From: Myxococcales bacterium
GTDB taxonomy: Bacteria; Myxococcota_A; SURF-8
DNA: 64,000 nt
Assembly (NCBI GenBank): GCA_003598065.1
Contig: QZKR01000108.1
Location: 1-64,000 of the forward strand
Direction: 5' to 3'
Shown: in pieces, positions 20,875 to 63,245 of the stretch
How positions within the stretch are numbered: position 1 is the stretch's first letter
How the letters are laid out: each line of letters starts with the position of its first letter
Position numbers and translations under genes: made by a program
Notes under the pieces: generated by a model
Told to the model about the DNA's origin: nothing
The model's database searches: none
What the model saw: only the letters and a program-made list of their open reading frames with translations

Positions 20875-22563
20875 CTAACCGCCAGCCCGCTTTCGCTTTT
20901 GCCGTCCCAAAGCCAGAAGACCGACAAACGCCGCCATCAGCAGGGCGGTCGAACCGCCGACGGCGGAACAACCGCTCGAAGCGCCTTTGGCGCAGCCTTT
21001 CGCCGCATCGCAACTCAACCCTTGAGAGGCGCAATCGAGAGAGATCCAGCCCGAACCCGCCGAATTGCAACTATTAAGGATGTCCCCCTCGCAGGCCGCT
21101 TCGCCGGGCGCGCACAGCGTTCCGTCGGGCATATCGCCGTCCCCGGGAACATCGCCATCGGCCGGCGAGTCGCCATCGGCGGGGGCGTCGCCATCCGCAA
21201 CGTCGCCGTCGGCAGGGGCGTCGCCGTCCGCCGGCAAATCGCCGTCGGCGGGCGCATCGCCGTCCGTGGGCGCATCGCCATCCGGCGCATCGCCGTCCGC
21301 CGCCGCAGGCTCGCAGGACCCGTCAACGCAGATCATGTCCAGGGAACATTCTTCCAGAATCCGCCAGCGTTCGTCGCGGCAAATCTGGGCCACGGCGAAT
21401 CCCAGGCAGCGCTGTTCGCCGTTCGTGCATTCCGGGCCCGCGCCGCAGCCGGGCTCGGGCTCGCCCGGGCAGCCGGCCGTGCCTATGCCGCAGCCGTCGA
21501 GCGTCGTATCGAAGGAACCGCGGTTGTCGGTGGACCAATCGTAGAAGGATTCCCAGCGGGCGCGGTAGTTGTCCACCGCCTGGACCTGCTGCGGCGCAGG
21601 CGGCTGGCCTTGCGGGTGGACGAGGATGAAGGCCGCCTTCCAGTGGCAGACGTCAAGCGCCGGGTTGCGAGGGCCTTCCTGGCGGACGATGTCCTCGATG
21701 GCCACGTCCACGCGGGTCCCCGTCTCTTCGCCGCTGGACCCGTGCCCCATGGGGATCGACGCCGAGCCCTGGACGTCTCCCACATCGACGACGAACATCG
21801 GCTCGACTTCCTCGGCGGTCCGCAACCCCATCAGATACTGGTCGAGCTGGCTGTATTTGACCGTTCCCAAGGGGTAGCTGAAGCGGAAATTGCCGCCGCC
21901 CAAATCCTCGATGCAGCTCCCGTACATCAGCGAGCAGGAATTGAAATAGTATGACCAGTGCTGATTGAAGCCGTTCGAACCGTAACCGTTGCAGGTGTCG
22001 CCGCCGGCGCTCCCGTCCCCGCCGGTCGGTTCGTAACCGCGCAACAGACACTGCATCCCCTGGCCGTCGTTTTTATCGAAATTGACGGCGGACAGCCAAT
22101 GGTGGCCGAACTCGTGGGCCTGCAGTTCGATGCCGGTAAGCGGGTAGAAGGGTACGATCGGCGCATTCAAGTCGGGATTGGACGGCAGGGTGTTGATGTT
22201 GCCCATGTTGACGGTGATGCGCAGGCGGCCCGTCGCGGAGCACGCCTGCTGCGTCCAGTCGAAGAGCGGCCTGCCTATCCCCTCGTTGGTGTTCTGCCAC
22301 GACCAGCCCTGCTGGATGTTGGTCACCGACGTGTTGAAGATGAAAAGGCCGTCGTAGTTGTCCTCGTGCGTGCGATAGAAGGCGCAGGCGACGTTGCCCA
22401 GGAAAACGTTGGGCATGGAGGCCCCGGGGAAGGCGAGGATCGAGCCGTCAAGATCTTCGATGACGGCGACTTCGCCCACATCCTCCGTGCGGGGATAGGC
22501 GGAAGGCGCGCAGAGGGCGAACGTGGCGGCGGCAACCCAGGCGGCGAGCGCAAAACGAGTCAT
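20875..22563 (-). CDS. Secreted putative zinc metalloprotease with DGD-repeat linker and C-terminal sorting-tag-like tail
   Basis: Signal peptide; ELQAHEFGHHWLSAVNF (HExxH); Cys-rich region; (DGDAPA)n linker; tail GASSGCSAVGGSTALLMAAFVGLLALGRQKRKRAGG (Cys motif + TM + basic cluster). Confidence 0.7.
   Translation of the reverse strand: MTRFALAAWVAAATFALCAPSAYPRTEDVGEVAVIEDLDGSILAFPGASMPNVFLGNVACAFYRTHEDNYDGLFIFNTSVTNIQQGWSWQNTNEGIGRPLFDWTQQACSATGRLRITVNMGNINTLPSNPDLNAPIVPFYPLTGIELQAHEFGHHWLSAVNFDKNDGQGMQCLLRGYEPTGGDGSAGGDTCNGYGSNGFNQHWSYYFNSCSLMYGSCIEDLGGGNFRFSYPLGTVKYSQLDQYLMGLRTAEEVEPMFVVDVGDVQGSASIPMGHGSSGEETGTRVDVAIEDIVRQEGPRNPALDVCHWKAAFILVHPQGQPPAPQQVQAVDNYRARWESFYDWSTDNRGSFDTTLDGCGIGTAGCPGEPEPGCGAGPECTNGEQRCLGFAVAQICRDERWRILEECSLDMICVDGSCEPAAADGDAPDGDAPTDGDAPADGDLPADGDAPADGDVADGDAPADGDSPADGDVPGDGDMPDGTLCAPGEAACEGDILNSCNSAGSGWISLDCASQGLSCDAAKGCAKGASSGCSAVGGSTALLMAAFVGLLALGRQKRKRAGG
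21121..21303 (-). repeat. Imperfect tandem repeat encoding (Asp-Gly-Asp-x-Pro-Ala)n
   Basis: Protein DGDAPDGDAPTDGDAPADGDLPADGDAPADGDVADGDAPADGDSPADGDVPGDGD; about 18-bp period visible in DNA. Confidence 0.85.
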
Positions 22564-54180: not shown

Positions 54181-57138
54181 TCAGCGCGCCGGCGCGCAAC
54201 GGCCCTTGTTGCTGCACGTCTGCCCCGTGGGACAGGGGAAGTTGAAAGCCGGGTCAGGATCTATCCAGCAATCGACGCGGCAGATCTTGCCGCCGCAGTC
54301 GGCGACGCCGCTGTCCCAGCAATACGCGCCGACCCCGCAGTTCGCGTCCGTCTGGCACGTCGGATAAGGCTTGATGGGATTGCAGGGCGCTCCGGGAATC
54401 GGGTCGTCGCAGCCGCCGCGTCCGTTGCAGATTTCGCCGGTGTAGCACTGCGAGTCGAGCATGCAGTCCTGCGGCTGGCAAACGCCCTCCGGCAGCCTGC
54501 ACGACATATGATAGGGGCATTCCTGGCCGTCGGGAGTTTCGCAGGGCGTGAAGATGCCGTGATAATCGACGTCGGACTCGGCGTCCGGTTCGGGCTCGTC
54601 GTCCGCATCGCCGTCGGCGGGCGGGGCGCACCTGCCGCGCGTCGTGCATTCCTCGCCGCCCGCGCAGCCCTGGGCGGGCGGCATGCAGTCGTTCTGACAG
54701 ACGCCGGCGTTGCACCACGCATACAGCGGACAGTCGGCGTCCACGCCGCAGCTCGGGTAGGTGAGATACGTCGGGCTCGGGACGAAGTCCGGCGCGACGC
54801 AGTCGCGACGCTCCGAACAGACGTTCCCCCCCGCGCAGCCGCTCCCGTCGTAGCAGCCGGCCATGCCCAGACAGGTGAACGAGTACGCATCGCAAAACTG
54901 GCCCTTCGGGCATTCGGGATGGCCCGCGCAATTTTGGTAGGCCATCTGGCAGGTGCCTATACTTGTGCATACGTAACCCGGATGCCCCTGCAAACTGCAA
55001 TCCTCGTCGGTCTGGCAGTCGAAGGCGCAGGTATTGCTCGGACCGCAGTACTGGCCGGGCGGGCAATCGGCGGTGCCGACGCACTGGCCGTCGTTGTCCG
55101 CCTCGTCGATCTCCGGCAGCTCGATCTCGATGCAGTCGTCGTCGATGTCGCCGCCGCAGAACGGAATCAGTTCGCAGCGGCCGCGTTCGTTGCAGCGCGT
55201 CTGGGGCACGGTGCAGGGATTCGTCGGACTGCAATCGGAGACGCACACGTTGTGCGGGAACTGGCAGAAATGGTAGAGCGGGCACTGATCGTCCTGCGTG
55301 CAGACGACGGTCTGGTCCTCTTCCGTTTCGTCGCCGTCCGCTTCGGGCAGGATGTCCTCGCAGCGGCCGCGCTCCGTGCAATAGGCGTCCACGCCGCCGT
55401 TGCAGTCCGCGTCCGCCGTGCAGTCGAAGGTGCAGAGATTGTTCGGAACGTCGCAGTACTGTCCCGCGGGGCAGTTGGAATCCATTTCGCAGAAGTAGCC
55501 CGCGAACTCGTCGGCGTCCTCGTCGCCGTCGGATTGCAGGAATTCGCATTTGCCGACGGCGTTGCAGCCCATCGTGTCCGGGCAGTCCTCGTTCGTCTGG
55601 CAGACCTGGTCGCAGATGTTGAACTCGTTGCAGAAATGGCCGGCCGGACAGTCGCCGTCGGTCGCGCAGCCTTCCTCGACGCAACGGCCGCGCTCGTTGC
55701 AGTAATAGGCCGCGCCGAAACGATCGATGCACTCCTGGGTCGTCTGGCAATCCTGGCAGCAGTAGGTATTGCCGTAGCAGCAGCTCCAGCCGTAGCCGCA
55801 TTGCTCGTCCGTGGAGCAGGGGCGCAGTTCCTGGTCGCCGTCGGCCTGCGCCGTGCAGCGGCCGTGGACGCACTCCTCGCCGATCGCCTGATTGCACTCG
55901 GCGGGCGAACAGCAGCCCGCCGCGCATCGCAAGGCGCTCTCGTCGCAGTACTCGCAGGGATCGTTGCAATCCGTGTCCTGCCCGCAGGTCTGGCCCGTCG
56001 GATCGCAGCGGCCGCGCGCCGTGTTGCAGGCGTACCCTTGGGCGCAATCGGCGTTGGTCGCGCACTCCCTGAAGCAGAAATTTTCGAGCGGGTTGGGCAT
56101 GACGAAGCAGTACATTCCCGGCGGGCAGACGGCCGCTTCGGTCGCCGGCGTGCAGGCGCCTCCGTCGTCATCGACGTCGCCGTCGGCGTCGGGGATGCAG
56201 AAGCCGTGCGCGTCGCAATGGTAGCCGATGCCGCAGCCGGCGTCGTTCGTGCAGCCGCGAACGCAGATGAGCTGCACGGGATCGCAGTAGTGCCGGAACG
56301 GGCACTGATCGTCGAAGGTGCAGAAGTCCTCCGGCTCCAGGTCGCCGGGTTCCCAATCGCCGTCGGGGGGGGGGTCGTCGTCCGTCTGGTCCCCGTCGGA
56401 AGGTTCGTCCTCATCCGGCTCCTTGTCGCCATCCGTCGCCGCGTCGTCGGTGTCGGCGTCGCCGTCGGGCTCCAGGTCGTCGTCCGCCTCGTCCGCGCCG
56501 TCCGCGTCATCGCCGTCCGGCGGCGCGCAGAAGGCTTCTTCGAAATTGTAAAGGTAGGGGGCGCAATAGAGCTTCACGACGTCTTCGACGGCGTCGTAAC
56601 TCAGCACGCAGCCAAGCGCCGGAACCTCCGCCGTGCCGTTCGCTTTGCATTCCAGATCGCCGTCGAAAACGTTCTGCTGGGCCGTGAAGACCTGAAGGCG
56701 GATCGACTCCGGCCGCGCCGCCTCGGCGGCGACGACGACTCTGGCGTAACCGGAAGGATTCTGCAGCAGCGGGTCGATGCAGAACGCGCCGGAAACGAAA
56801 CGGCAGAGGCCGGGTTTCTCCACGTCGCCATCGGATCCATCGCCGTCGGCCGGCGGCTCGCCGTCCGGTTCGCCATCTCCGTCCGCAAGCGGTTCGTCGT
56901 CATCGGCGGGAGCGTCGCCGTCCAGGGGATCGCGGTCGCCGTCCTCGTCCGATTTGACGCAGGTGTCGCCCTGCGGCCTGTAGCCTCTGTCGCAGACGCA
57001 TTGCCCGTCGATGAATTCGCCGTGGCCGCCGCAAGGTTGAACGGCCTGGTCGCCGTCCTGATCGTCCGCCTGTTCGGAGGACGAACCCGAGCAGGCCGCC
57101 AGGACAAGGAACGCCGCCGCGGTGAAGAAAATCCGCAT
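54181..57138 (-). CDS. Cys-rich lipoprotein with ~12 tandem disulfide-type modules and DGD-rich linkers
   Basis: Lipobox MRIFFTAAAFLVLAACSG (ORF extends to 57189); modules of form CxxDxxCPxxxxCxxxxxxCxxxCxxxxxCxxxxxCxxxGRC; acidic DGD tracts near 56341-56535 and 56815-56965. Confidence 0.85.
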   Translation of the reverse strand: MRIFFTAAAFLVLAACSGSSSEQADDQDGDQAVQPCGGHGEFIDGQCVCDRGYRPQGDTCVKSDEDGDRDPLDGDAPADDDEPLADGDGEPDGEPPADGDGSDGDVEKPGLCRFVSGAFCIDPLLQNPSGYARVVVAAEAARPESIRLQVFTAQQNVFDGDLECKANGTAEVPALGCVLSYDAVEDVVKLYCAPYLYNFEEAFCAPPDGDDADGADEADDDLEPDGDADTDDAATDGDKEPDEDEPSDGDQTDDDPPPDGDWEPGDLEPEDFCTFDDQCPFRHYCDPVQLICVRGCTNDAGCGIGYHCDAHGFCIPDADGDVDDDGGACTPATEAAVCPPGMYCFVMPNPLENFCFRECATNADCAQGYACNTARGRCDPTGQTCGQDTDCNDPCEYCDESALRCAAGCCSPAECNQAIGEECVHGRCTAQADGDQELRPCSTDEQCGYGWSCCYGNTYCCQDCQTTQECIDRFGAAYYCNERGRCVEEGCATDGDCPAGHFCNEFNICDQVCQTNEDCPDTMGCNAVGKCEFLQSDGDEDADEFAGYFCEMDSNCPAGQYCDVPNNLCTFDCTADADCNGGVDAYCTERGRCEDILPEADGDETEEDQTVVCTQDDQCPLYHFCQFPHNVCVSDCSPTNPCTVPQTRCNERGRCELIPFCGGDIDDDCIEIELPEIDEADNDGQCVGTADCPPGQYCGPSNTCAFDCQTDEDCSLQGHPGYVCTSIGTCQMAYQNCAGHPECPKGQFCDAYSFTCLGMAGCYDGSGCAGGNVCSERRDCVAPDFVPSPTYLTYPSCGVDADCPLYAWCNAGVCQNDCMPPAQGCAGGEECTTRGRCAPPADGDADDEPEPDAESDVDYHGIFTPCETPDGQECPYHMSCRLPEGVCQPQDCMLDSQCYTGEICNGRGGCDDPIPGAPCNPIKPYPTCQTDANCGVGAYCWDSGVADCGGKICRVDCWIDPDPAFNFPCPTGQTCSNKGRCAPAR

Positions 57139-57300: not shown

Positions 57301-57750
57301 CTATGGCAGCGCATCCTTTTGCGGCACCTCCGTCTTTTTCATTTTTTCCGCCTGCAATTTTTTGACTTCCGTAAGTTTTTCTTCCGGCAGGACCGTCAGC
57401 GATCGGGCCACGAATTCGCCGCGCCCGTTCAAGACCCGCAGGATGGAAACCGCCCGCCCCGGCAACAGATCCCTGGCCGAGTGGCGGGAAATCTGGAGTT
57501 CTCCAGAATTGTTGAATTTCGTCGCCTCGGTGATGCGGATCGTCACCGGCCATTCCACCAGGATCAAGAGCAGATCGCCCTCGAACGGTGCCACGTTCTT
57601 CACCTCTCCGGTGATTTCCGTTCCGGAAAGGCGCGCCAGTCCCGATTGCGGCTTCGTCTGCGCGGCGACAAGGGCGGGAACGGCCAGCAAAAGCAGCCAA
57701 AACCCGACGCCCGCCAGCGCTTTGCACCCAAACGATACGCGTTGCGTCAT
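57301..57750 (-). CDS. Small exported hypothetical protein, adjacent to pilY1-like gene
   Basis: Likely start MTQRVSFGCKALAGVGFWLLLLAVPALVAAQ with GGAG upstream (ORF extends to 57780); single small beta-type domain. Confidence 0.6.
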   Translation of the reverse strand: MTQRVSFGCKALAGVGFWLLLLAVPALVAAQTKPQSGLARLSGTEITGEVKNVAPFEGDLLLILVEWPVTIRITEATKFNNSGELQISRHSARDLLPGRAVSILRVLNGRGEFVARSLTVLPEEKLTEVKKLQAEKMKKTEVPQKDALP

Positions 57751-57793
57751 GACCGTCGCTCCATCATTAATAAGTTCCATCGCTTACCTCGCG

Positions 57794-60700
57794 TCAGCGA
57801 ATGCGGAAAAAGGTCGTCTTCGCTCCCTGCATCGGCGGCAGACCGGCGATCTGAATCCGCAGCACGCCCTGGTCGGCGCCCGTCTTCACGTACAACGAGT
57901 TGGTGTAAGGATCGACCTCGACGCGCGACAGGATCGAGCCGGCGAATTTCTGCCCGGCGTAGCCTTTGCCGCTGTTTTTATCGCTGGCGTTCAGAACCAA
58001 GTCGCCATCGATGTCCTGGATGGCGAAATTGGGCGCCTGACCGTCCTGGGCCCGGATCGACATGACGTAGCCGCCGCCTTTGCCGGCTTCGTTGACGGCG
58101 CGGATGTCGCAGGTGCCCTGCATGTTCGGCGTGAAGGTCGTGAAGAAGGCGATCCACTCGTTCGCCTGGCGGTTCTCCGCCTCCGTATCCGGGTCGGCCT
58201 GCTCCATGATCACCGGTTCGGTCACGACCTTTTCGCCGCGGTTGATCTCCAGCGTGGAATTGAACGCCAGCTTCCAGCCGCGCCAGCCGGTCTCGGGGTT
58301 GTTGCCCATGCGGTCGATGAGCCGCACCGGACGATCGCCGACTTCCAGGCTGGATCCGCCGGCGGTGGTGTCCTGCACCTGGCTGGACATCAGCTCGGCC
58401 CACTTCACGCGCGAGGCCTCCGAAGCGGTCGGATAGTTCCAGTCGATCACGCCGATGAACTGCTGCTGGTCGATGGTGCAGCCGGAATACGGCCACGTCA
58501 GACAAGCCGCGGCGTTCGGCTGACGCTTGAATTCGTCGAAGCTGTCGTGAAACGCGTCGTACTTGCCCGTCCCGACGAAGACCATCGTGCGGTCGAAATT
58601 GTCCACCTCGCCCAGAAAGGTTTTATCCGTCTGGCCCTCGTCGTTCGGGTTGGTGTCGGTGCGCCAGACCACCGGCCGCACGCTGATCGGCCGGGGATAT
58701 TTGTAGAACTCGTAGTAGGTGCTGGCGTCGTCCTCGCCGAGCAGCTGCTGGAGGCGGGTGTTCGCGACGCGCTGTTTGTAGTTGTACAGTTCGTCCGGCG
58801 TCTCCAGAACGCGGAAGGTGTTGAACAGCACCTGGCCTTCCAGGTGGAAGTTATGGCTGCCGGCGGTGTCGGGAATCACGGCGAACCGCAGCAGGTGCCC
58901 CGCCAGATCGCCGATGTAGACGGCGTCCTCGTATCCGTCCTGCTCGGTCGTCCAGGCGGCGTTGCGGAACTGGCCGTTGTCCATCACCGTCCCCGACGAC
59001 AGAACGTTGTTGCGGACGAACGTTTCGTCGTCGCCCAGGCCGGCGATGGCGATGTTGTAGGGCGGGTCATCGCCGGAATTCTTGGAGATGCGCACCTTGG
59101 CGACGAGCGTCGGCGTTTTCTGGCCGGAAGCCGGAAACATCTTGACGGCGTAGAAGTAGCCTTCCTTCTGGATCTGGGCGGCCGAGTGCGGCGCATACCC
59201 GGAACCGAAAAACGCCATCCACTCCGAATCCGTATCGTCGGGGTCCTTCGTCGTGCGGAAGCGGCCGGACGTCGGAACGGAATAGGTCAGGCCGAGGTCC
59301 GGATCGGTGAAATACCAGAGAAACTCCGCCCGGTCCGGGTCCGACTGGGTCGGCGTCAGATGCCCGTACGGCGGCGTGATGTCGAGCGCCCAGTAGTGGT
59401 CGCCGCCGCCGCGGCTGCCGACCAGCAGCACCGAACGCCATTCGTTCGTCGTTTTGTTGAACGCGTCGTGAACCACGGGACGCAGGTCCATCGCCGGCGA
59501 ACGAAGCTGCTCGTAAACCGGCCGGGCGATCTCCCGAAGCTTGGGCAGGATGTCCCAGGGGACGAAAGCCCAGAGTTCGACGCCGCTCTCGCCGTCGAAG
59601 CAGTGCAGCATGCCGTCGTTGGCGGCGACCAGCAGCGTCGGGCGGCGGCGCTGATAATCTTTGGCGTTGAAGAACTTGCTGTAGAGCACCGGCCCGACGT
59701 CCGCCCAGGAGTTGGACGGCTTCGAGCCGAGATAGATCGGATCGGCGTGGGCGATGTCGCCCAACAGCCAGCTGTCGTTGTAAATTTCGTCGTAGCGCTC
59801 GCGCAGCAGTTCGATCGTCACCGGCGTCGCCAGGGCGAGAGCGTCGGGATTGAGCGGCCGGTGCAGATCGTAGAGCGTCGAGGCGTTCGACGGGATGACT
59901 TTGCGCGACTGCAGAGGGTTGCCGGCGTCCGAGTTCTCGTTGAGAACGCCGGTCGTCCAGCTGATGAGGTCCGCCGCCTCGGCGGCGCTGTCGAAACCGA
60001 ACTGCGCATTGAGCGCATCGGCGTTGGAGGCCTCGAACCAGAGGCGCGCGCCGGAGGTGTTGAAGGTGAAAATTTTCCGGCCGCTGGCGGGAGCGAGGTA
60101 ATTGTCGATATTTTCGGTTTTCCACTTGCGGGTGACGCAGAAACCGAAAAGGTTGCCCTTGCCCGAGGAGCAGCCTACGGACGGGGTGTAGTAATCCACG
60201 GCGCAGTAATGCGGGCATTTGTCGGCCACCGGCGGTCCTTTGCATTCCGGCGCCGGCAGGCAGCGGTCGTCGTCCGTGCAGTCGGAATTGGTTTTGCAGG
60301 CCGTCGGCAGCCGGTAGCCGTAGATCGCGCCGCGCCAGTAGCGCGGATTGAAGTTGACGTCGTAGAGCGAGGGAGTGACCTTCACTTTGTCGCCGACTTC
60401 GTCGAGGTATTCGACGTCGTTGGAGGCGACCGAAAACAAAGAACGCACCGAACCGTAGGTCGATTGGAGAATCGGGTCGTCCAAGGTCCAACGGGCCGAG
60501 ACGTAGATCGGCCGCACGCCCAGGGTCAGATTGTCCCACTCCTGGGCGATGGCGTTGTCGTCGAGCCTGGTGAGCGCGACGCCGGCGGTGAGCGCGTCGG
60601 GGCCGAGCGGGTTGGACCAGGTGAAGGTGGGCAGGTCGTCGCGCTTCGTTTTGTCGAACACCGCCGCCCACCAGCCTTCGTACTGCTTGGCCGAGGGATG

Positions 60701-61597
60701 CATGGCCAAGGTGCCCTGGAAGAACGACGCGCCGCCGGTGCCGCCGGAAATCTTCGCCACGTCGCAGAGATAGCCGTAGCCGAAGTCGTTGCCGGCCGTA
60801 TAGGTGTCCACGACGTGCCAGAATTTCGCGCGCCGATAGAGCGTCGCGTTTTCCTTCTGCGTCTCCATCTTCCAGGTGATGTCGAAATACGGTTTGCCCG
60901 GCGGCTGATAGACGGACTGGGTGATGATGACGATGTCGTCCGTTTCCGGATCGCCGGTATCCAGCACGGCCATGTGGCGGGTGTCGATCCGGCTCCCCGT
61001 CGGCGACTGGGCGTGCAGTTGCATCGCGTCGCCGATGGTGTCGGGGAAAAGAATGCCCACCAGATCCTTATCGACGTCGGTCACCGCCTCGAGCCCGCCT
61101 TCCGGCAGGAGGGGACCGGCGTACTGCGTGCTCCACCGGCGCACGCAATCGCAATCGCCCGTCGGGTTGGCGCAGAGGCAAAGCGCGATCAACGTGTTGG
61201 TGAGACCGGGAAAGGCCTGGCCCGTACGATCGACGATGGTGTAGGTCTGCACCTCGCGCGCGCAGGAGCAGCTCCGACCGTCGTCGAAAGTGGGCTGAAT
61301 CGAACCGGCCATGACGATGTTTTTGTCGTTGGTGATGAACTGGCTGACGCCGATTTCGCCCGAACTGCTGACGCAGGAGCCCGGCGTCTCCTCGTCGCCG
61401 CAGGAGGTGTCCCCGGCGGCGTCGTAACAGCACTCGCCGTTCAAGCCGTCCAGGCCGTCCACCTTGTAAAAGAAGTCGGCGTTCAGGACTTTGTCGGTTT
61501 GCTGGGCGTTGACGGACGCGGACGCCATCAGCGCCAGAACGCTCAGGCCGAAAAGAAGGCTCAGTGTCTTGGACCTCATCGCCGGGTCTCCCGTCAT
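57794..61597 (-). CDS. pilY1: PilY1/PilC-like type IV pilus tip-associated protein
   Basis: Canonical C-terminal propeller motifs LLVAANDGMLHCFDGESGVELWAFVPWDILPKL, LLVGSRGGGDHYWALDITPP, DAVYIGDLAGHLLRF; signal peptide; start overlaps the upstream stop (TAATG). Confidence 0.88.
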   Translation of the reverse strand: MTGDPAMRSKTLSLLFGLSVLALMASASVNAQQTDKVLNADFFYKVDGLDGLNGECCYDAAGDTSCGDEETPGSCVSSSGEIGVSQFITNDKNIVMAGSIQPTFDDGRSCSCAREVQTYTIVDRTGQAFPGLTNTLIALCLCANPTGDCDCVRRWSTQYAGPLLPEGGLEAVTDVDKDLVGILFPDTIGDAMQLHAQSPTGSRIDTRHMAVLDTGDPETDDIVIITQSVYQPPGKPYFDITWKMETQKENATLYRRAKFWHVVDTYTAGNDFGYGYLCDVAKISGGTGGASFFQGTLAMHPSAKQYEGWWAAVFDKTKRDDLPTFTWSNPLGPDALTAGVALTRLDDNAIAQEWDNLTLGVRPIYVSARWTLDDPILQSTYGSVRSLFSVASNDVEYLDEVGDKVKVTPSLYDVNFNPRYWRGAIYGYRLPTACKTNSDCTDDDRCLPAPECKGPPVADKCPHYCAVDYYTPSVGCSSGKGNLFGFCVTRKWKTENIDNYLAPASGRKIFTFNTSGARLWFEASNADALNAQFGFDSAAEAADLISWTTGVLNENSDAGNPLQSRKVIPSNASTLYDLHRPLNPDALALATPVTIELLRERYDEIYNDSWLLGDIAHADPIYLGSKPSNSWADVGPVLYSKFFNAKDYQRRRPTLLVAANDGMLHCFDGESGVELWAFVPWDILPKLREIARPVYEQLRSPAMDLRPVVHDAFNKTTNEWRSVLLVGSRGGGDHYWALDITPPYGHLTPTQSDPDRAEFLWYFTDPDLGLTYSVPTSGRFRTTKDPDDTDSEWMAFFGSGYAPHSAAQIQKEGYFYAVKMFPASGQKTPTLVAKVRISKNSGDDPPYNIAIAGLGDDETFVRNNVLSSGTVMDNGQFRNAAWTTEQDGYEDAVYIGDLAGHLLRFAVIPDTAGSHNFHLEGQVLFNTFRVLETPDELYNYKQRVANTRLQQLLGEDDASTYYEFYKYPRPISVRPVVWRTDTNPNDEGQTDKTFLGEVDNFDRTMVFVGTGKYDAFHDSFDEFKRQPNAAACLTWPYSGCTIDQQQFIGVIDWNYPTASEASRVKWAELMSSQVQDTTAGGSSLEVGDRPVRLIDRMGNNPETGWRGWKLAFNSTLEINRGEKVVTEPVIMEQADPDTEAENRQANEWIAFFTTFTPNMQGTCDIRAVNEAGKGGGYVMSIRAQDGQAPNFAIQDIDGDLVLNASDKNSGKGYAGQKFAGSILSRVEVDPYTNSLYVKTGADQGVLRIQIAGLPPMQGAKTTFFRIR

Positions 61598-62118
61598 TAG
61601 GTGGACGCGAGCGTCTGCTGTTCGATGGTCTGCACCTGCCGCACGTTGATGCCCGCGTTGTCGGGCCGGACCACGCAGGAGTCAACCTTGTAGTGGTATG
61701 TCTTCAGCACGCGCGGCGATTCCTGGCCGCTCGTGCGGTTGTTGCGGTTGTCGGCGCTGATCTCGACCTTCACGTATTCGATGCAGTACTTCACGCGCCG
61801 GTCGAGGCTGTTCGGGTACCAGTGCTCCACCTCGGGGTTCGAGCCTTCGCAGGAGCAGTTGTAGCCCGGCACTTCGGGGTTGCTGGAGGTGAGAATCACC
61901 TGCCGCGCCGCTTCCACGCCGGCCTCGCCCCAGGACATGGCGATGACGTTGCTTTCGAAATTGCGGGCGATCTTCGTCTCGTTGATGGCGACGTTCACCG
62001 CCGTCGCGCCGATCAGCGACATCATCACCAGCAGGATCAGCGACACCACGAGCGTGTAGCCCCGCTTCCCCGCCATGATTGGCGTCCTCGCCGTCATTTG
62101 TGCCTCGTTTCTCATCAT
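61597..62118 (-). CDS. pilX: PilX-like minor pilin/assembly protein
   Basis: KRGYTLVVSLILLVMMSLIGATAVNVAINETKIARNFESNVIAMSWGEAGVEAARQ; ATGA overlap with the pilW-like gene; position between PilW- and PilY1-like genes. Confidence 0.75.
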   Translation of the reverse strand: MMRNEAQMTARTPIMAGKRGYTLVVSLILLVMMSLIGATAVNVAINETKIARNFESNVIAMSWGEAGVEAARQVILTSSNPEVPGYNCSCEGSNPEVEHWYPNSLDRRVKYCIEYVKVEISADNRNNRTSGQESPRVLKTYHYKVDSCVVRPDNAGINVRQVQTIEQQTLAST

Positions 62119-63245
62119 ATCTCCGCGCGGTAGGCGAACATGTTCGGCATGTAAACGATCGTGCTCATCAGCACGTGGTCTTTGCGGCATTCCTGCGTGT
62201 CCGACACGACGTAACCCACGGGATGATCGCCGAGGTAATACGTTTTCTTGATCCGGTCGGCGTTGCAGTCGGCCGCGCTGATCGTCGGATCGATGCCTTC
62301 GGTCTGTACGAGAATCTCGATTTTCACCGCCTTGATGCGCGTCAGCACGTTGGCGACGCTCGTGAAGTCGGGCCGGCAGTTCGGCGTCGGCACGAAGCTC
62401 GCCTCCGTAAGATCGGAGCAGCCGAAGAGCGTCTGCAACTCGGCCAGCGGCATGTCCAGCAGATACGAAAACTGCAGATCCTTCACGCCTTCCGCGATGT
62501 AGTAAAACGTGTCCGGGTCCGGATCGGCCTCGGTGCGCGGATTGTTCAGGAAATTCACGTCGCAGCCCCGCGCGCCGCCATCGACGTCCTTGCGCGTGCA
62601 GCGCGCGAGCCGGTCTCCCCAGTTCTGGTACGTGACGTACATCGGCTTCTGGATGAGGAGCGCGCCCTCATCGACGAAATCGGACGCCTGATATTCGGGA
62701 TCGGTGGACCAGATGCTGACGACCGCCGCCGAATCCGTGACGGCGCCGAGCTTGCCCGCGCCGACCCGCCGCCGGGAAAGATCGAAGATGGCGACGTCCA
62801 TGTTGGCGCGCAGCATGTCGCGGCCGGTGGACGGCTTCAGCGCGACCGAGGCGTTGCCGTTGCTGAGCGTGACCAGCGACACATCGGAAGCGACCAGCGC
62901 CATCGCGCCGCCGGAAGATTTGAATTGGATCGCGTCGGAAGCGTTGCTGTCGAAGCCGGCGTTGACGGTGCCGGTGGTGAAGCCCGTCTCGCGCCCGGGA
63001 TTGGCGGCGTCGGTGACGCGATTCTGCGCGATCGTGCCGAAGCCGGCCATCTTGATTTCGGCGGCCATCAGGTCCAGCGCGGCCCGGGCCGTCTGCTGGA
63101 TGCGGCTGACCTGCCCGCTGGAGGTATATACCCGGTTCGACGTGACGAAGAGCGCGAAGCCCGCCCCGATGACGATGGCGGACAGAGCCAAGGCCACCAT
63201 CAGTTCGATCAGCGTAAACCCGCGCGCCGTGCGAAGCGTCGTCAT
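62115..63245 (-). CDS. pilW: PilW-like minor pilin
   Basis: Type III signal ARG|FTLIELMVALALSAIVIGAGFALFVTSNRVY; SRIQQTARAALDLMAAEIKMAGFG. Confidence 0.82.
   Translation of the reverse strand: MTTLRTARGFTLIELMVALALSAIVIGAGFALFVTSNRVYTSSGQVSRIQQTARAALDLMAAEIKMAGFGTIAQNRVTDAANPGRETGFTTGTVNAGFDSNASDAIQFKSSGGAMALVASDVSLVTLSNGNASVALKPSTGRDMLRANMDVAIFDLSRRRVGAGKLGAVTDSAAVVSIWSTDPEYQASDFVDEGALLIQKPMYVTYQNWGDRLARCTRKDVDGGARGCDVNFLNNPRTEADPDPDTFYYIAEGVKDLQFSYLLDMPLAELQTLFGCSDLTEASFVPTPNCRPDFTSVANVLTRIKAVKIEILVQTEGIDPTISAADCNADRIKKTYYLGDHPVGYVVSDTQECRKDHVLMSTIVYMPNMFAYRAEI

Follow-up and report, generated by a model that had tools for sequence, protein, structure and literature searches.

What kind of protein is a large, cysteine-rich lipoprotein encoded between a set of pilus-tip genes and an enormous open reading frame, and does it serve the pilus? 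The question is raised by a stretch of 64,000 nucleotides (contig QZKR01000108.1 of a Myxococcales bacterium; hereafter the window), in which the original prediction had described twelve tandem disulfide modules joined by DGD linkers, had called them EGF/Dickkopf-like, and had suggested a surface stalk stabilised by Ca2+ or disulfides, or a partner for the giant protein. The observation is confirmed by our analysis and the interpretation is partly supported: the gene encodes a lipid-anchored disulfide array within a pilus-tip operon, and this array probably acts as a surface stalk or adhesin.

The coordinates first given for the gene, 54181-57138, are correct, to which we add that it lies on the minus strand, as do all features of the window described below. 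It reads from an ATG at 57138, with a GGGGAGG stretch upstream, to a stop codon at 54181-54183, and its product of 985 aa contains 115 Cys. As predicted, the product is a lipoprotein: both by eye and by pattern, MRIFFTAAAFLVLAAC (57091-57138) has the mark of one, a signal peptide with a lipobox Cys at its end, here LAAC with Cys16 and a Ser at +2. The whole protein gave nothing in Pfam or NCBIfam scans, and its segments were then scanned separately. Behind the lipobox lies a single EGF-like domain (residues 36-60; 56959-57033), which, scanned alone, matches Pfam EGF_Teneurin at 2.8e-7 (30.9 bits against a cut-off of 24.3). It is followed by a first acidic DGD tract (residues 61-111, 41% D+E; 56806-56958), a Cys-containing domain without a Pfam match (residues 112-206; 56521-56805) and a second DGD tract (residues 207-272, about 50% D+E; 56323-56520), after which the twelve modules run to the C-terminus. 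For the N-terminal domain (residues 108-206) no convincing homologue was found in the 189 genomes searched. A MYXO-CTERM sorting tail is absent from the lipoprotein, which ends in GRCAPAR. A Bacteroidetes-type lipoprotein export signal (LES) was considered and rejected on position, as it is not found at +2 to +6. The lipoprotein may be exposed on the outer face, and the likeness of its acidic tether to an LES should be taken as an analogy only.

Counting and aligning the modules gave twelve, as stated originally, of 41-54 aa each and with eight Cys invariant in all twelve; the two quoted as examples are exactly modules 1 and 6. From the N-terminal side, they are module 1 (residues 273-314; 56197-56322), module 2 (329-378; 56005-56154), module 3 (385-428, 10 Cys; 55855-55986), module 4 (441-486, 10 Cys; 55681-55818), module 5 (491-531; 55546-55668), module 6 (550-593; 55360-55491), module 7 (613-655; 55174-55302), module 8 (686-730; 54949-55083), module 9 (737-780; 54799-54930), module 10 (797-837; 54628-54750), module 11 (866-910; 54409-54543) and module 12 (928-981, 9 Cys; 54196-54357). 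Linkers of 4-6 residues at three joints bring modules 2-3, 4-5 and 8-9 into close pairs. Nearly all modules had been described as ending GRC-like; GRC itself closes seven of the twelve. Each module consists of two similar halves with four Cys apiece, and the regularity of the spacing is far outside chance expectation: of the 103 intervals from one Cys to the next between residues 270 and 985, 52 measure exactly 6 residues, while 5,000 shuffles gave a mean of 6.9 and a maximum of 18, and the strict 8-Cys pattern is matched 8 times where shuffled sequences average 0.0005. Besides the Cys, one nearly invariant Gly and few other positions are conserved across the alignment, scarce conservation that fits what would be expected of a scaffold.

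The prediction of disulfide modules is further borne out by structure prediction of a single module. Module 6, modelled by AlphaFold2 with the other eleven modules as alignment, reached a mean pLDDT of 90.8. A model of two modules was poor (pLDDT 61.9), which does not support a rigid rod. No match reached E 0.001 when the module model was compared with the PDB by Foldseek. The best local superpositions were on squash trypsin inhibitors of the EETI-II type (0.6-0.7 A over 23 residues, with 39-43% identity), and E-values were lowest for the Ascaris carboxypeptidase inhibitor and for the Cys-rich domain of Draxin, which superposed poorly as a whole. A profile built from the modules also matched scytovirin weakly (E 0.014); in scytovirin, the C-x5-C-x5-C-x5-C unit has the disulfides Cys20-Cys32 and Cys26-Cys38, that is C1-C3 and C2-C4 (PMC3407925). 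Min-23 is the two-disulfide cystine-stabilised beta-sheet (CSB) core of EETI-II (PMC6259850), and both the Cys spacing and the local fold of the predicted module agree with such a core. Each module thus looks like two Min-23/CSB-type, knottin-core units, and the disulfides within each half-module would pair C1-C3 and C2-C4. A complete knottin or inhibitor cystine knot, with three disulfides, was rejected because the standard half-module has only four Cys. Squash trypsin inhibitors carry an inhibitory loop; this loop and the third disulfide are absent from the modules, so protease inhibition is not predicted. As for the EGF/Dickkopf-like label, the EGF part holds for residues 36-60 only, none of the twelve modules matching EGF, and membership of Dickkopf_N (PF04706) was rejected, with a best score of 19.4 bits (module 6) against a cut-off of 25. 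Dickkopf_N does exceed its cut-off at four other places in the genome, and in 0 of 14 control genomes. Our search of the Myxococcota literature for modules of Dickkopf or knottin type found nothing relevant. In place of the vague label, a small domain can now be proposed in a form open to test: two CSB units in each module.

The DGD tracts call for a reading of their own. The lipoprotein contains 18 DGD tripeptides, and the description of DGD linkers joining the modules applies to five of the eleven inter-module linkers, whereas 12 of the 18 tripeptides precede the array. Across the genome, a DGDxxDGD coding pattern (a 15-base unit) has 383 matches and the reversed control pattern has 0; some of these tracts exceed ten units. 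Among 23 distinct DGD-tract ORFs sampled, 22 carry a membrane anchor (20 lipobox-like, 2 a MYXO-CTERM-like tail), with the proviso that anchors were called by simple patterns and single cases may be wrong; one of these ORFs (L058) has an NCBIfam MYXO-CTERM match just under cut-off. A regular-expression search of the lipoprotein found no EF-hand or TSP3 loop, and whole-protein Pfam was also empty. Since DGD tracts across the genome sit beside membrane anchors in the sampled ORFs, and no Ca2+ loop is present in the lipoprotein, they read, as far as their sequence goes, as acidic membrane tethers and not as Ca2+ sites, and the long ones are probably disordered. The linkers, a genome-wide membrane tether, can in this way be told apart from the beads.

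The modules too reach well beyond this locus. The module profile has 62 matches in its own genome, spread over many ORFs and 12 of them in the lipoprotein, and at least one match in 171 of 237 genomes sampled from the phylum, apparently Myxococcota, yet no Pfam model reaches its cut-off in this array. A search of genome contigs with the lipoprotein found no relatives. In another family, one ORF (L121, G077:C158) has 31 modules and 293 Cys. The modules and their acidic linkers are a stock kit of the lineage for many putative surface proteins, and the lipoprotein is not a new kind of protein. The original prediction had named a match to a well-known bacterial family of unrelated function as evidence against it; the modules do match a widespread, lineage-specific kind, but one without known function. 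It had also proposed looking for disulfide oxidases, and these are present: the genome encodes a number of DsbA domains, with three in a single ORF (G000:C126:4371-6056), a VKOR-DsbA fusion in an ORF of 394 aa (G000:C2:4877-5980) and a second VKOR.

Upstream of the lipoprotein gene lie genes for a PilW-like minor pilin (62115-63245; N_methyl 3.2e-8, with PilW at 7.7e-5, under cut-off), a PilX-like minor pilin (61597-62190; PilX_N 2.2e-7), the type IV pilus tip protein PilY1 (57794-61597; Pfam T4P_PilY1 5e-10) and a small secreted protein in the PilY2 position (57301-57780), which has a homologous ORF in the sister genus (G001:C407). Downstream is the gene for the giant secreted protein of 10,448 aa (22739-54085), with Big_13 Ig-like repeats and a C-terminal FGE-sulfatase-like domain. 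The lipoprotein gene does have the pilus-tip genes on one side and the giant ORF on the other, but not directly, as the small gene separates it from PilY1. The gaps between successive genes, from PilY1 through to the giant gene, are about 14, 162 and 96 bases, and no terminator-like site was found on the minus strand within them.

The order PilY1, small gene, lipoprotein is kept in the one other family genome compared (G001), where PilY1 is 50% identical and the contig stops near residue 113 of the lipoprotein, ahead of any module. Conservation of gene order thus refers to two genomes only, and places the lipoprotein within a PilY1 operon in both genera. G001 (79% complete, fragmented) gave no match to the giant protein's N-terminus; adjacency makes the lipoprotein at most a candidate partner of the giant protein. 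Outside the family, none of 16 PilY1 loci has a Cys array directly beside PilY1, which makes a pilus link at best family-specific, and unrelated small lipoproteins often adjoin PilY1 at these loci. Apart from three distant MAGs, a PilY1 search named just the sister MAG (JAKQSH01, Deltaproteobacteria bacterium USMO_metabat.105_sub), filed as Myxococcota in the NCBI taxonomy.

Several other proteins have related features. PilY1 of both genera carries a Cys-rich, half-module-like insertion (CKTNSDCTDDDRCLPAPEC in the window, where it counts four Cys; CSDNHTCGSGKYCIFDYC in G001, L010), and the giant ORF contains concanavalin-like segments as well as two isolated Cys stretches that resemble half-modules. 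The product of 20875-22563, encoded immediately downstream of the giant, combines a metallopeptidase-like HEFGHHW (HExxH) motif with a DGD tract and a Cys stretch, and has a tail of MYXO-CTERM-like type (GCSAVGGS...RQKRKR); neither Pfam nor NCBIfam gave a match. Another locus (L033, G028:C99) has two near-identical tandem PilY1 ORFs of about 1,600 aa with 48-50 Cys each.

Based on this analysis we can present a rough proposal. The N-terminal lipid would fix the lipoprotein to the membrane of the outer envelope and the acidic DGD tracts would serve as tethers, with twelve compact disulfide-braced beads, each made of two small cystine-stabilised beta-sheet units of Min-23 type bonded C1-C3 and C2-C4 per half, forming an extended stalk or adhesive arm that resists proteases. 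Because it is encoded in a PilY1 minor-pilin cluster, the lipoprotein would most likely take part in contacts made through the pilus, whether at the cell surface or within the periplasm. We give about even chances to a cystine-stabilised, tethered envelope lipoprotein of this sort, serving the pilus-tip operon as a stalk or adhesive arm. The abundance of module matches over many ORFs of the same genome and in most of the phylum genomes, as well as the lack of a Cys array at the 16 outside PilY1 loci, would also suit a Cys-rich lipoprotein interchangeable with many others of the lineage, standing in the operon by chance and with no special link to the pilus. We consider this possible though unlikely, given the order shared with the sister genus and the close spacing of same-strand genes with no intervening terminator-like site.

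A precedent for a different role comes from Myxococcus xanthus, where the cluster_1 minor-pilin/PilY1 operon includes an additional gene, tfcP, whose periplasmic product stabilises PilY1.1 (PMC8833165), so that extra genes in such operons can matter. The lipoprotein could likewise be a periplasmic helper stabilising PilY1 or the giant protein; PilY1 here carries the same half-module, and small lipoproteins often come next after PilY1 elsewhere. However, a cytochrome c domain was not found in the lipoprotein, and the length of its tether and the use of the kit on many lipoproteins genome-wide suit a surface role better, which leaves the helper rather improbable. The scytovirin match, with its identical Cys spacing, could instead hint at a multivalent carbohydrate-binding lectin for prey or matrix, but the E-value is weak and nothing beyond the Cys and one Gly is conserved across the twelve modules. 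Moreover, the binding residues of scytovirin lie mostly outside the matched unit, and we regard a lectin as quite improbable. Least probable of all, and very much so, is a stalk stiffened by Ca2+ bound to the DGD tracts, as originally suggested: the number of DGD tripeptides and the high acidity of the linkers speak for it, while the lack of EF-hand and TSP3 loops and the genome-wide, anchor-side position of such tracts speak against Ca2+ binding. The stalk or adhesive arm has a bolder version, to which we assign a low probability, much like that of the helper: the half-module may be a natural Min-23-like binding scaffold, multiplied and diversified in Myxococcota over proteins with a lipid anchor or a MYXO-CTERM-like tail, and the array a multivalent recognition arm that, with the pilus tip and the giant Ig-like protein, contacts prey or neighbouring cells.

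Among known systems, squash inhibitors and the Min-23 CSB core share with the lipoprotein the C-x5-C-x5-C-x5/6-C spacing and the predicted local fold, but its half-modules, in contrast to the squash inhibitors, would have two disulfides only, lack the inhibitory loop, and are tandem and membrane-anchored. The cyanobacterial lectin scytovirin shares, through its weak match, the tandem four-Cys unit. Dickkopf_N and the Draxin Cys-rich domain share a Cys-rich pattern, with weak profile and fold matches, although every module of the lipoprotein scores under the Pfam cut-off for Dickkopf_N. Cys-rich repeats are found as well in TraA, a surface protein of M. xanthus (PMC13184517). TraA differs in its variable recognition domain and its MYXO-CTERM; the lipoprotein is anchored through a lipobox instead, and no variable domain was recognised in it. 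Other Cys-rich lipoproteins and MYXO-CTERM-like proteins of Myxococcota (for example G000:C5, C18 and C50; G077:C158) have the same 8-Cys modules or half-modules and a lipobox or C-terminal anchor, and, in the lipoprotein's own genome, DGD tethers as well; compared with these, the lipoprotein has the largest array among the loci examined from its own genome and sits in a PilY1 operon.
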